Part shown: positions 22,992 to 60,503 of the stretch, one piece after another
Numbering within the stretch: position 1 is the first letter of the stretch
Layout of the letters: every line of letters starts with the position of its first letter
Assembly: GCA_016795385.1 (NCBI GenBank)
Contig: JAEUHI010000041.1
Coordinates: 1 to 64,000 of the forward strand
Direction of reading: 5' to 3'
Length of the DNA: 64,000 nt
Source: Verrucomicrobiales bacterium
GTDB taxonomy: Bacteria > Verrucomicrobiota > Verrucomicrobiia > Verrucomicrobiales > DEV007
The notes under the pieces: model-generated
What the model was told of the DNA's origin: nothing
The model's input: the letters and a program-made list of their open reading frames with translations, nothing else
Database searches by the model: none
Made by a program: the position numbers and the translations under genes

Positions 22992-23410
22992 ATTCCTCCG
23001 CTTCTTCGTCCTCCCGGGCCCGGACCGTGCAACGCTGGGTCATCCGCTTCTGCGCTTTCGTGCTGTTCACCGGCTTGCCCGCGATCATCCTCCCGGGCGT
23101 CGCGCTTGAGAAATTCGCCTGGCTGATGAAGATGCCGCGGCCCACGCTCGAGCCCCTCACGGTGTATCTGTCAGGGAACACGGGATTCATCTATGTCGCC
23201 CTCGGGGTCGTCTTCTGGATGGTCTCGAACGACGTCGTCCGGCATCAGGCCTTCGTGAAGGCGTTCGGCTGGATCCTCCTCCTCGGGGGGCCGATCTATT
23301 TCTCCATCGACCTCCAGGCCAAGCTCCCGATGTGGTGGGTGCTGCTCGACGCGATCAGTTGTTTTGTCATGGGCCTGACCCTGCTGCTCACTTCGCGGAG
23401 GATCCAATGA
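22988..23410 (+). CDS. Small four-helix membrane protein, unknown
   Basis: A 140-residue protein read from a GTG that overlaps the sialidase stop (GTGA); its own stop overlaps the next ATG (ATGA). It therefore lies translationally coupled between two secreted catabolic enzymes. Four hydrophobic helices are visible, including WVIRFCAFVLFTGLPAIILPG, FIYVALGVVFWMV, FGWILLLGGPIYFSI and the C-terminal ISCFVMGLTLLL. No signature residues were recognised. Similar small membrane proteins are usually annotated only as hypothetical. No ATG gives a sensible start, which supports the GTG. Confidence 0.65.
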   Translation: MNSSASSSSRARTVQRWVIRFCAFVLFTGLPAIILPGVALEKFAWLMKMPRPTLEPLTVYLSGNTGFIYVALGVVFWMVSNDVVRHQAFVKAFGWILLLGGPIYFSIDLQAKLPMWWVLLDAISCFVMGLTLLLTSRRIQ

Positions 23411-25098
23411 AAGCCCGCCTCCTGCTCTTCTCCGTGTCCCTCTGTGCCCTCGGTGGTTCTCCTCTCCGAGCCGCCACCTTCGAAGCGGATATCTGCGTGT
23501 TCGGGGGCACCAGCGGTGGCGTCATCGCCGCGGTGCAGGTCGCCCGCATGGGCAAACGCGTGATCCTTCTCGAGCCCGGGCGCCATCTCGGCGGCATGAC
23601 CTCGGGCGGTCTCAGCGCCGTCGACATCGGCGATCCCCGCAGCGTCGGCGGACTCGCCCGCGAATACTTCACGAGGCTCGCTGCCACCACCGGCACCGTC
23701 CTCGCCTGGGACAAACCTTTTGCCAGCAAGGGCGGCGGTCCGGCCACGGGCGGAGCCTACGCCATCGAGCCCCACGAGGCGGAGCGGCTTTTCATTGAGA
23801 TGGCGAAGGAAGCGGGCGTGCAGGTCCGCTTCGAGGCTCGCCTCACCTCGGCCGTGAAAAGCGAAGCCCGCATCACGGAACTCCGCCTCGACAACGGGGA
23901 TTCGGTCAGGGCGAAGGTCTTTCTCGACACCACCTACGAAGGCGACCTCATGGCCAAGTCGGGCGTTTCCTACACCCTCGAACGCGAGGGCAACGCGAAA
24001 TACGGCGAGACCTACAACGGCATCCACTATGCCGAAAAATACCAGCCTCGCACCGGCCATCTCATGCCCGGCGAGAACGGACGCGTCAAAGGCGGACAGG
24101 GAGTCTGGGACCGTGACTTTCCGCTCGACCCGTACGTGGTGAAGGGCGATCCCGCGAGCGGACTCCTGCCGCTCGTCGATACGGGCGAACCGGGCACTCC
24201 AGGGGATCCCGCGCCCGGGGTGCAGGCCTACTGCTACCGCCTTTGCTTGACCACCGATCCCGCCAACTCCCGCCCCATCGAGCCGCCCGCCGACTACGAT
24301 CCGAAACGCTACGAACTGGTCGTGCGCTTCATCGAGGCCTGCCTCGCCAACGGCGACGACATGGACCTGCGCTGGTTTTCCAAGCACGATCCCCTGCCCA
24401 ACGACAAATGGGATTTCAACACCGCGACCTTCGGCGGCAACCTGCCGGGTGCGAGTTGGGCCTGGCCCGAGGCAGCTTACACCGAGCGCGGACGCATCGC
24501 GAAGGCCCACGAGGACTACCATCGCGGCCTCCTCCATTTCCTCGCCACCGATCCGCGCGTGCCCGAGAAAGTGAGGAACGACATGAAACGTTTCGGCCTG
24601 CCGAAGGACGAATTCCCCGACACGGGCGGCTGGCCGCACCAGATCTACGTGCGGGAGGCCCGGCGCATGATCGGACCGCTCGTCCTGACCGAACACCACA
24701 CCTTCGGCCGCGAGGTCGCGCCGAAGTCCGTCGGGCTCGGCAGCTACGGCACGGACATCCACGAGATCCGGCGCATCGTGAAGGATGGCGTCGTCATCCG
24801 CGAGGGCAAGGTCGCGGGCGGGCGCGGCGGGGCCGGTCCCTACCCGATCGGCTATGAGGCGATCGTTCCACGGACAGAGGAATGCGAAAATCTCTTCGTC
24901 ACCTTCGCCCTCAGCGCGAGCCACAGCGCCTTCGCGAGCCTGCGGATGGAGCCCGTTTTCATGATCACGAGCCAGAGCGCCGCCACCGCCGCCTGTCTCG
25001 CGATCGACGCCGGAGTATCGGTGCAGGCGGTCGATTACGAATCGCTGCGCCGTCGACTCGAGGCCGATGGCCAGGTCCTGGAGTGGAAGTCCAAGTAG
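23407..25098 (+). CDS. Secreted FAD-dependent oxidoreductase (FAD_oxidored family)
   Basis: A 563-residue exported flavoprotein. A signal peptide ends near LRAATF. The nucleotide-binding strand DICVFGGTSGGVIAAVQVAR and the acidic E of VILLEPG bind the FAD ribose. HLGGMTSGGLSAVD is the family's next conserved block, and the C-terminal part (SHSAFASLRMEP, SQSAATAACLAIDAG) completes the domain. Members are abundant in Planctomycetes and Verrucomicrobia near glycan-degradation genes; their substrates, perhaps sugar acids or hydroxy compounds, are mostly unknown. It is coupled by a 4-nt overlap to the membrane protein before it. The signal-peptide codons coincide with a 9-nt-period repeat (see 23429). 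Confidence 0.88.
   Translation: MKARLLLFSVSLCALGGSPLRAATFEADICVFGGTSGGVIAAVQVARMGKRVILLEPGRHLGGMTSGGLSAVDIGDPRSVGGLAREYFTRLAATTGTVLAWDKPFASKGGGPATGGAYAIEPHEAERLFIEMAKEAGVQVRFEARLTSAVKSEARITELRLDNGDSVRAKVFLDTTYEGDLMAKSGVSYTLEREGNAKYGETYNGIHYAEKYQPRTGHLMPGENGRVKGGQGVWDRDFPLDPYVVKGDPASGLLPLVDTGEPGTPGDPAPGVQAYCYRLCLTTDPANSRPIEPPADYDPKRYELVVRFIEACLANGDDMDLRWFSKHDPLPNDKWDFNTATFGGNLPGASWAWPEAAYTERGRIAKAHEDYHRGLLHFLATDPRVPEKVRNDMKRFGLPKDEFPDTGGWPHQIYVREARRMIGPLVLTEHHTFGREVAPKSVGLGSYGTDIHEIRRIVKDGVVIREGKVAGGRGGAGPYPIGYEAIVPRTEECENLFVTFALSASHSAFASLRMEPVFMITSQSAATAACLAIDAGVSVQAVDYESLRRRLEADGQVLEWKSK
23429..23457. repeat. 9-nt-period repeat inside a signal-peptide coding region (copy 1)
   Basis: A 29-nt stretch whose minus strand reads as degenerate units of GGCACAGAG. 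It matches a second copy at 25574-25602 in 27 of 29 positions and lies in the same reading frame, giving S-V-S-L-C-A-L in the signal peptide of the FAD oxidoreductase. Flanking codons also match in part. Confidence 0.7.
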
Positions 25099-25137
25099 AT
25101 CTCCCATCAACCACGTGCAGACGCCCTTCCTATCACA

Positions 25138-25527
25138 ATGAAAACGCCACCGCGCCAGGTCGAATGCACCATCCCCATCCTGCCGGTGTCCGATCTGCGG
25201 AACGCGCTGCGCTTTTACACCGGTCCTCTTGGCTTCTCACTGGATTGGGGCGGAGAACCAGCCAGTAGGATCGCCTCGGTGTCCCGCGACGGCTGCGCCC
25301 TGATGCTTTCGGAAACCGGCCCCGACCCGTCGCGCGCTTGGGTTTGGATCGGATTGGAAGACGAGACCCTCTTTCACGAGTTTCGAAACGCCGGGGTGAT
25401 GATCCGTCAGGAACCACGGAACTTTACCTGGGCCTACGAAATGAAATTCGAAGATCCCGATGGCAATGTCCTCTGGCTCGGGACAGAGCCGAGACAAGAC
25501 CTGCCGTTCGAGGATTCGGCTTCTTGA
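25138..25527 (+). CDS. Glyoxalase/bleomycin-resistance (VOC) family protein
   Basis: A 129-residue cytosolic VOC-fold protein. It begins VECTIPILPVSDLRNALRFY, the first beta-alpha unit of the fold, and ends with FEDPDGNVLWLG, the usual last strand with a metal-side acidic residue. The arrangement resembles bleomycin-binding or glyoxalase-like proteins that bind small ligands without clear catalysis. It follows the FAD oxidoreductase by 39 nt and precedes the nucleoside hydrolase; no functional link is evident. Length is normal. A precise function cannot be given from sequence. Confidence 0.82.
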   Translation: MKTPPRQVECTIPILPVSDLRNALRFYTGPLGFSLDWGGEPASRIASVSRDGCALMLSETGPDPSRAWVWIGLEDETLFHEFRNAGVMIRQEPRNFTWAYEMKFEDPDGNVLWLGTEPRQDLPFEDSAS

Positions 25528-25548
25528 TGCAACGCCCTCTCTCGGATC

Positions 25549-26536
25549 ATGATTGCTCGGCTCCTCCTCATTCTCTCCGTGTCCCTCAGTGCCCTCTGTG
25601 GTGTCTCCCTCCGCGCCGCCGAGCCGGTGAAGATCCTCTTCGACACCGACATGACCACCGACTGCGATGACGCCGGAGCCATGGCCGTGCTCCACGCCCT
25701 CGCGGACCGGGGTGAATGCGAGATTCTTGCCACGGTCACGAGCGTTCCCGATCCGAACGCCCTCGCCACCGTCGATGCCATCAATCGTTACCGCGGGCGC
25801 CCCGATCTGCCGCTCGGTCTCGTCAAGGAGGGCGGCGTGAAGATGCCGTCGAAGTTCACCGGCCGTATCGCCAGGGAATTCCCCCATCGGGTCGTGTCGG
25901 GCTCGGACTTCCCCGACGCGGTCGAGGTTTATCGGGAAATCCTCACCCACCAACCGGACCGCTCCGTCGTCCTCGTCACGGTCGGCTACCTCACCAACGT
26001 GAGCCGCTTTCTCCAGTCACCCGGCGGCATGGAACTCGCACGGGCCAAGGTCACCCGATGGGTCTGCATGGGCGGCAATTTCATCGGCGATCCGCCGAAG
26101 GACGATCTCTCGCTCGGCAACGTCAACTTCCAGCGCGACGCCGCGTCGGCCCATCACGCGATCCACCACTGGCCCGGGGGAAATCGTCTTCGCCGGACGC
26201 GAGGTCTGCTCGGTGCCGAGCGGGCTCGCGATCGGTTCCGCCCTGGCCGGGACGCCGGCTGACAATCCCGTGCGCCGCGCCTACGAGCACTACTTCGACG
26301 GCACCGCCCGCGACCGTCATGTCGCCGACCTCGCCGCGGTGCTGGTTGCCGTGCGCGGCCTCACCGACTGCTGGGATGTGTCCGGCCCCGGACGCATGGA
26401 CCTGCGCGAGGACATGACCTTCGCGTGGGTGCCCGATCCAGCGGGGAAGCAACGATATCTTTTAAAGAAGCCCGTCAATGACCGGCACGTCGAGCGCGTG
26501 CTGGAGGCGTTGCTGGTGGCACCCCCGAAGGAATGA
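25549..26536 (+). pseudogene. Secreted nucleoside hydrolase, frameshifted
   Basis: Two reading frames together make one nucleoside hydrolase of about 328 residues. The first part has a signal peptide, then the family's calcium-binding N-terminus LFDTDMTTDCDDAGAM and the central VTVGYLTNVSRFL and CMGGNF. The frame breaks at a run of five G (26176-26180). Removing one G restores GEIVFAGREVCSVPSGLAIG and the remaining conserved C-terminal part, which ends with FAWVPDP. Without correction the first frame stops at 26262. This is either a true frameshift mutation, a sequencing or assembly error at a homopolymer, or (less likely) slippage. Intact members hydrolyse the N-glycosidic bond of nucleosides; the exported form suggests scavenging. 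Confidence 0.82.
25574..25602. repeat. 9-nt-period repeat inside a signal-peptide coding region (copy 2)
   Basis: Second copy of the element at 23429-23457, again in the signal peptide and again read in the same frame (S-V-S-L-S-A-L). The two differ at two of 29 positions. The encoded proteins are otherwise unrelated, so common ancestry of the repeat rather than of the genes explains the match. Confidence 0.7.
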
Positions 26537-40158: not shown

Positions 40159-41784
40159 TCACGCCACCGGGCACTGGTTGATCGCCTTGAAGAAATCGTT
40201 GCCCTTGTTGTCCACGAGAATGAAGGCGGGGAATTTCTCCACTTCGATCTTCCAGACCGCCTCCATGCCGAGTTCGGCGAAGTCGAGGACCTCGACCTTC
40301 TTGATGTGGTTCTGCGCGAGGATCGCGGCAGGACCTCCGATCGAGCCCAGATAAAAGCCCCCGTGTTTCTTGCAGGCGTCGGTGACCTGCTGGCTACGGT
40401 TGCCCTTCGCGATCATCACCATCGAGGCTCCCTTGGACTGGAACAGATCGACGTAGGGATCCATCCGCCCCGCCGTGGTCGGGCCGAAAGATCCGCTCGG
40501 CATGCCTTCGGGGGTTTTGGCGGGACCAGCGTAATAGACGGGGAAATCCTTGAAATACTGGGGCAGTTCTTCGCCCCGTTCCACCATCTCGCGGAGCTTT
40601 GCATGGGCGATGTCGCGGGCCACAATGATCGTGCCGGTGAGCTCGAGGGCGGTGGTGACGGGATACTTCGAGAGGGTCTTCAGCGTCTCGGCCATTCCGA
40701 GATTCAAATCGACCGGCACGCCGTGGAACTGGTGGTCACGCCACTTCTCCGGGATGTATTGGCCGGGATTGGTCTCGAGCTGCTCGAGAAAGACCCCATC
40801 CTTCGTGATCTTGGCCTTGGCCTGACGGTCCGCCGAGCAACTCACTCCGAGTCCGACAGGACAACTCGCGCCATGGCGCGGCAGGCGGATCACCCGCACA
40901 TCAAGGGCGAAGAACTTGCCGCCGAATTGGGCACCGATCCCGATCTCGCGCGCTTTCGCGAGGAGGGTCTTTTCCATCTCGAGATCCCGGAAGGCCTGGG
41001 CCTTTTCGCTGCCTTCGGTGGGGAGGGCATCGAGGTAGCGGGTCGAGGCGAGTTTCACCGTTTTCAGGGTCGCCTCGGCGCTGGTGCCGCCGACGACAAA
41101 GGCGAGGTGATAGGGAGGACAGGCCGAGGTGCCGATCGAGCGCATCTTCTCGATCGCCCAAGGCACGAAGCGGTCTTCGGAAAGGAGCGCCTTGGTCTCC
41201 TGATAGAGGAAGGTCTTGTTGGCTGATCCCCCGCCCTTGGTGATGAAAAGCAATTCATACTCCGCCCCATCCGCCGCGAAGAGATCGATCTGCGCGGGCA
41301 GGTTGTTGCGGGTGTTCTTCTCATCAAAGAGGGTCAAGGGAGCGAGCTGGGAGTATCGGAGATTCTCCTCCTGGAAGGTTTTCCAGATGCCGGCGGCGAG
41401 AGCCTCCTCGTCATGACCACCGGTCCAGACCTGCTGGCCCTTCTTGCCGACGACGATGGCAGTGCCGGTATCCTGACACATCGGCAAAATGCCGCGGGCC
41501 GCGATCTCCGCGTTGCGCAGGAGGGTGAGGGCGACGAGCCGGTCGTTGTCGGTCGCCTCGGGATCATCGAGGATGGCGGCGACCTGCTTCAGGTGCGAGG
41601 GACGCAGCATGAAGGAGATGTCTTTAAGCGCCTCGTTCGCGAGACGGGTGAGCGCCTCGGGCGAGACCTTGAGGACCTCCTTTCCTTCGAATTCCGTGAC
41701 GGAGACGCCCTCGGTGGTGACGAGGCGGTAGGTGGTGGTATCAGGGCCGAGGGGAAAGGGTTTGTGGTAGGAGAAATCGCTCAT
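40159..41784 (-). CDS. Fumarate hydratase, class I (iron-sulfur)
   Basis: A 541-residue single-chain class I fumarase converting fumarate and malate in the TCA cycle. The three cysteines that hold the 4Fe-4S cluster are visible: PMCQDTGTA (Cys103), [12 protein letters not shown] (about 222) and [12 protein letters not shown] (about 308). The C-terminal beta domain contains [26 protein letters not shown] and [13 protein letters not shown]. The start MSDFSYHKP agrees with the family; the frame is open further upstream but without similarity. It is the first gene of a pair with the alcohol dehydrogenase and is divergent from the ABC permease. Identification is firm. Confidence 0.95.
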
Positions 41785-60395: not shown

Positions 60396-60410
60396 TGAGC
60401 GGGTCAACAA

Positions 60411-60503
60411 CTCATACTCATACTCATACTCATACTCATACTCATACTCCCCGACCCGCCTGACGAATCGAGTAGGAGTATGAGGTAAGAGTAGGAGTTA
60501 GAG
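60411..60503. repeat. CATACT hairpin element before the DUF58 gene
   Basis: The left arm (60411-60450) is an almost perfect ACTCAT hexamer array; the right arm (60470-60503) is of inverted type, GAGTAGGAGTATGAGGTAAG and onward. The loop is about 19 nt. Exactly 9 nt (ATTGAAACC) separate it from the DUF58 ATG, as in the copy at 35601-35705. Confidence 0.85.

Follow-up and report, generated by a model that had tools for sequence, protein, structure and literature searches.

Rickettsia palindromic elements (RPEs) are MITE-like repeats found in frame within protein-coding genes (Ogata 2000, 2002, via PMC10969869); they measure about 150 bp, were found in rickettsiae and have been reported within metabolic genes that are unrelated to one another. 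This family is the nearest described phenomenon to the repeat considered here. The two have in common a palindromic, hairpin-type structure, copies located between genes and in-frame copies within unrelated genes (here those for an FAD-dependent oxidoreductase, a nucleoside hydrolase, sulfatases and alpha-amylases, as well as the N-terminus of a DAO-family oxidoreductase), with the encoded peptide apparently tolerated by the host protein. Unlike the RPEs of Rickettsia, from which it also differs in sequence, the present element is short (arms of about 27–30 nt, roughly 75–90 nt in total) and occurs in other phyla. What is used is a single arm of a cross-phylum element, in one hydrophobic frame, and the in-frame copies are confined to signal-peptide cores, with the exception of one N-terminal insert.

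REP/BIME sequences, which are moved by RAYT (Y1_Tnp) proteins, likewise consist of short inverted-repeat pairs in non-coding DNA, and the genome studied here contains Y1_Tnp matches. However, the arms of the present element are composed of three CACNGAG units, and another repeat of the same genome looks more RAYT-substrate-like. Many random hydrophobic sequences act as signal peptides. For that reason, a hydrophobic stretch encoded by a repeat can function as one, whereas the source in the present case is a specific mobile repeat that has been used repeatedly.

Two copies of the repeat, and no third, are present in the window (the whole stretch of DNA analysed, 64,000 nt). The relevant features are as follows.

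23407–25098, + strand: FAD-dependent oxidoreductase gene with signal peptide MKARLLLFSVSLCALGGSPLRAA (open reading frame; PF12831, FAD_oxidored, E 1.3e-90)
23429–23457, + strand: repeat copy 1, core CTCCGTGTCCCTCTGTGCCCTCGGTGGT, read S-V-S-L-C-A-L-G-G in the signal-peptide hydrophobic core; 0 mismatches to the genome-wide element pattern
25549–26262, + strand: nucleoside hydrolase gene with signal peptide MIARLLLILSVSLSALCGVSLRAA, frame broken near 26130 (PF01156, E 1.9e-7)
25574–25602, + strand: repeat copy 2, core CTCCGTGTCCCTCAGTGCCCTCTGTGGT, read S-V-S-L-S-A-L-C-G in the signal-peptide hydrophobic core; 0 mismatches to the element pattern

The original prediction held that the two copies match at 27 of 29 bases and are read in the same frame within the signal-peptide cores of two unrelated genes. 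The identity was reproduced, the translations confirm the common frame, and the genes are unrelated (PF12831 and PF01156). Signal peptides were predicted with a simple heuristic rather than SignalP; by this measure those of the oxidoreductase (MKARLLLF-SVSLCALGG-SPLRA/A, start 23407) and of the nucleoside hydrolase (MIARLLLIL-SVSLSALCG-VSLRA/A, start 25549) both fit Sec features (positive n-region, hydrophobic core, small residues at -1 and -3), with K/R at the start, an SVSLxALxG core and the end LRA/A. The PF01156 score is just below the curated cut-off, the scan having covered the first 194 aa of the nucleoside hydrolase only. The remaining protein is readable in another frame past the break (region 26100–26417) and the reading frame is unbroken in the close relative L229/G057; the break would stem from a mutation of recent date or from an error in the assembly.

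The repeat unit is CTCNGTG on the + strand and CACNGAG on the complement. It had been described as having a 9-nt period; a short-period repeat is indeed present, but the period is not strictly 9 nt, since the units are spaced by 10 and then 9 nt. Three units make up one arm, CACCACAGAGGGCACNGAGGGNCACNGAGG, and the complete element consists of two inverted arms and a short loop. One of the six frames of the arm reads S-V-[SPT]-L-x-A-L-[CG]-G; being uncharged and hydrophobic, it is usable as a signal-peptide core. Inverted arm pairs occur in the window's own genome (G000) at C35, C47 and C75, and hairpins fold at C35 (strongly) and at C75. No inverted second arm was found upstream of either window copy, which counts against the account favoured below. 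Searches of five copy-bearing loci against Rfam gave nothing above the gathering score; the matches to mir-4504 fell below it, and none of the Rfam families fits.

A search of the whole own genome with the element pattern, which was partly fitted on the window copies themselves, returned 13 copies at up to 3 mismatches, compared to 0 for the reversed pattern. Four of these are in signal peptides (the window pair and two sulfatases), one is an in-frame N-terminal insert and eight are non-coding. The copies outside the window include the following.

C34:97622: sulfatase signal peptide with the repeat, MNPRLLSVFLSALCG...
C34:101656: sulfatase signal peptide with the repeat, MNRLLFLLSVSLGILGG...
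C35:97887/97938: non-coding inverted pair that can form a hairpin
C47:48982/49024: non-coding inverted pair that can form a hairpin
C40:12280, C35:100208, C75:41606 and C34:17527: other non-coding copies, some adjoining gene starts

The proposal that the repeat also lies between genes is supported by non-coding copies with the same 10/9 spacing in the own genome, and the repeat extends to other phyla as well. Within the phylum, 27 of 388 sampled genomes contained matches (counted irrespective of location) as compared to 0 for controls. When 84,980 species genomes were scanned for the exact pattern, 84 copies were retrieved in 75 stretches, which belong to Verrucomicrobia, Planctomycetota, Acidobacteria, Bacteroidales, Hydrogenedentes, Caldilineaceae, one cyanobacterium and Methanosarcinales archaea. 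The contigs labelled as Methanosarcinales that contain the repeat are L213, L216, L227 and L246; the archaeal copies imply cross-domain spread, very old age or mis-binned contigs.

Repeat-encoded signal peptides are also found beyond the own genome. Within the genus, they occur in relatives of the own sulfatases (two in G010, as well as in G008), in a sulfatase of G031 and in the FAD oxidoreductase orthologue of G028, where a fourth unit is present (MKIRSAPLSTRLLLSVTLGALCALCGSPLHSA). In Planctomycetota, the repeat is located in the signal peptides of alpha-amylases (L211 and L233). The L233 gene has retained the inverted arm upstream, so that the hairpin spans the start and the 3' arm encodes the signal peptide. 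Every repeat-bearing signal peptide reads the same one of the six frames, namely the hydrophobic open one.

We consider it probable (roughly 80%) that each 29-bp segment of the window represents one arm of a palindromic, mobile repeat that is widespread between genes and is tolerated in signal-peptide cores. At the level of sequence, the comparisons demonstrate that the segments are the same repeat as the non-coding copies, that several unrelated signal peptides use it in a single frame and that most orthologues lack it. According to the mechanism we propose, the mobile palindrome would insert at the 5' ends of genes for exported proteins. An insertion in the hydrophobic frame would yield a still-working signal-peptide core and survive, while those elsewhere in coding DNA would be lost; the former core would be replaced or extended by the repeat, which would thereafter diverge as coding DNA normally does. 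In-frame copies would be tolerated because what is constrained in a signal-peptide core is hydrophobicity rather than the precise sequence. The repeat-encoded peptides would probably be functional as predicted export signals, and no specific host benefit would be needed.

The distribution of the copies fits such tolerance without requiring positive selection for the building of export signals. The tally of signal-peptide versus intergenic copies that had been suggested as a check was carried out on 1.73 Mb of the 6.49-Mb own genome, a sample in which all copy-bearing contigs were included on purpose; it gave 4 copies in signal-peptide zones (47 kb), 8 in non-coding DNA (169 kb) and only one, at an N-terminus, in the other coding DNA (about 1.5 Mb). 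The signal-peptide share of 4 in 13 is close to the expectation if such zones tolerate the element about as non-coding DNA does. A more far-reaching reading, in which a cross-domain selfish palindrome with a ready-made core has been repeatedly domesticated as a portable export signal, to the benefit of hosts rich in secreted hydrolases, is unlikely. The original prediction suggested recruitment of the repeat to build export signals. This part was not upheld, since orthologues that lack the repeat still have ordinary signal peptides (by the heuristic); export therefore predates the repeat, which replaced or lengthened an existing core.

No repeat is present in the FAD oxidoreductase orthologues from G008, G033 and G016, which are background-like, whereas that of G028 differs from the pattern by 1 mismatch. 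In the protein tree the own sequence groups with G013, and G033 is the sister of G028, so that at least two changes are required. In G028 the signal peptide exceeds that of G033 by about 10 residues, as insertion predicts. The closest relative of the window gene, that of G013 (91% identical as protein and 89.8% in the DNA of the gene body), also lacks the repeat: it shares 20 of 29 bases of the core in the same register and differs from the pattern at 7 positions, so that an ancestral copy common to both may have decayed there. The window signal peptide is only one codon longer than that of G013, which means that a clean insertion footprint is missing and that replacement or later trimming must be assumed. 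In the nucleoside hydrolase, the core is identical in G057, decayed in G010 (4 mismatches) and absent in G008. The outcome named in advance as counting against a repeat origin, that is, codons common to the relatives together with a lack of intergenic copies, was not seen: most FAD orthologues are free of the repeat and intergenic copies exist. In the close relative G057 (L294, on C61), no FAD oxidoreductase was found ahead of the nucleoside hydrolase despite nearly identical DNA immediately upstream of the latter; the FAD gene seems to have been gained or lost at this locus.

The repeat might instead have entered coding DNA only once here, with one window signal peptide serving as template for the other in a local gene conversion or duplication. 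The two genes are 2.1 kb apart, their likeness extends beyond the 29 bp into RLLL and LRAA, and the nucleoside hydrolase copy, being common to G057 and decayed in G010, appears to be older than the FAD copy. However, a non-coding copy in the sister genome G013 matches window copy 1 at 26 of 28 positions and is thus as close to it as window copy 2; the flanking motifs resemble those of other signal peptides of the own genome, and the repeat is found in the G028 orthologue and in unrelated sulfatases. We regard such a transfer as improbable; the repeat is likely to have reached both window genes by insertion and not through gene conversion from a further copy.

The likeness of the window pair is above chance. 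In the 1.73-Mb sample, 1298 genes were called by codon usage and 452 signal-peptide-like starts were chosen by the heuristic. Mismatches to the element pattern over the 452 starts were 0 and 0 (the window pair) and 2 (a sulfatase), with all others at 6 or more; the sulfatase at C34:101656 (3 mismatches) is absent from the 452, having been missed by the gene caller because an antisense frame was chosen there. Among all pairs of the 452 genes, the only unrelated ones matching at 27 or more of 29 positions are repeat-bearing (FAD oxidoreductase/nucleoside hydrolase, 27; sulfatase/nucleoside hydrolase, 27), and the other high-scoring pairs are homologous proteins that match in the mature part. The best pair in codon-shuffled sets reached 24 of 29. 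These results bear on convergence, in which codon bias (CTC, GCC, TCC, GTG) in Leu/Ala/Ser-rich cores would have produced the match by chance or through selection on an SVSLCALG motif. Although the repeat does contain the favoured codons CTC (0.50) and GCC (0.47), starts with 3 or fewer mismatches never arose when codon order was shuffled within the signal peptides (30 sets of 452 genes), and arose about 0.2 times per set under synonymous resampling, a null that retains the repeat-derived amino acids. For the window copies, the observed match was equalled in only 0.02–0.08% of synonymous draws, so that the codons fit the repeat more closely than the encoded amino acids and local codon bias can explain (P about 0.0008 and 0.0002). 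Furthermore, the 10/9 spacing and the GGT end are shared with non-coding copies, and SVSLxALxG occurs only in repeat codons in the sample examined. Convergence is thus very improbable.

Mobility of the element is indicated at C75:40288, where the own genome contains roughly 75 bp of extra DNA with no counterpart at the same site in G010 and G001 (the flanks in G010 are 86% identical). The extra DNA begins immediately behind the ATGAGT at the start of a gene for a DAO-family oxidoreductase and leaves the frame open (MSFTTEGTEGHRVRKSGKEMNSKPLRSS-VIILGAG). Of its two arms, one is well preserved and the other, inverted, is degenerate; the alignment thus demonstrates a lineage-specific insertion. 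The opposite direction, with the intergenic repeats being dispersed remains of signal-peptide gene starts, can be considered very improbable: several copies do lie just upstream of genes, but in many phyla and in archaea the non-coding copies are arranged as inverted pairs and tandem sets, most are devoid of an open frame of the signal-peptide type, and the C75:40288 copy is a clean insertion.

Viral contigs gave no exact match to the repeat and plasmids none to one complete element, so that no phage or plasmid carrier was found. The own genome has a large set of Y1_Tnp (RAYT-like transposase) matches, 33 in total, two of which are about 1.3–2.2 kb from the C35:100208 element.

In the literature searched by text, which left out most subscription papers, neither the repeat nor its use in signal peptides is described; no printed instance of the repeat in a prokaryotic context was retrieved, the sole text match being a connexin paper. 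The present case highlights a very widespread intergenic repeat for which no description was found in that literature. It also provides a traceable example of the origin and turnover of a signal-peptide core, from mobile repeat to coding sequence, with sister genomes that lack the repeat, and cautions that similar signal peptides do not necessarily denote homologous proteins.

Another REP-like repeat, unrelated to the present one and about 100 nt long (GGTAGCCGGGGG...CCCCCGG), was observed at L031 (about 2868–2977), corresponding to about 41655–41765 of the own C75. It is multi-copy in G057, G028, G010 and G013 and directly adjoins a CACAGAG element. Elsewhere in the window, positions 60410–60449 are occupied by a perfect ACTCAT tandem repeat of 6.7 copies.
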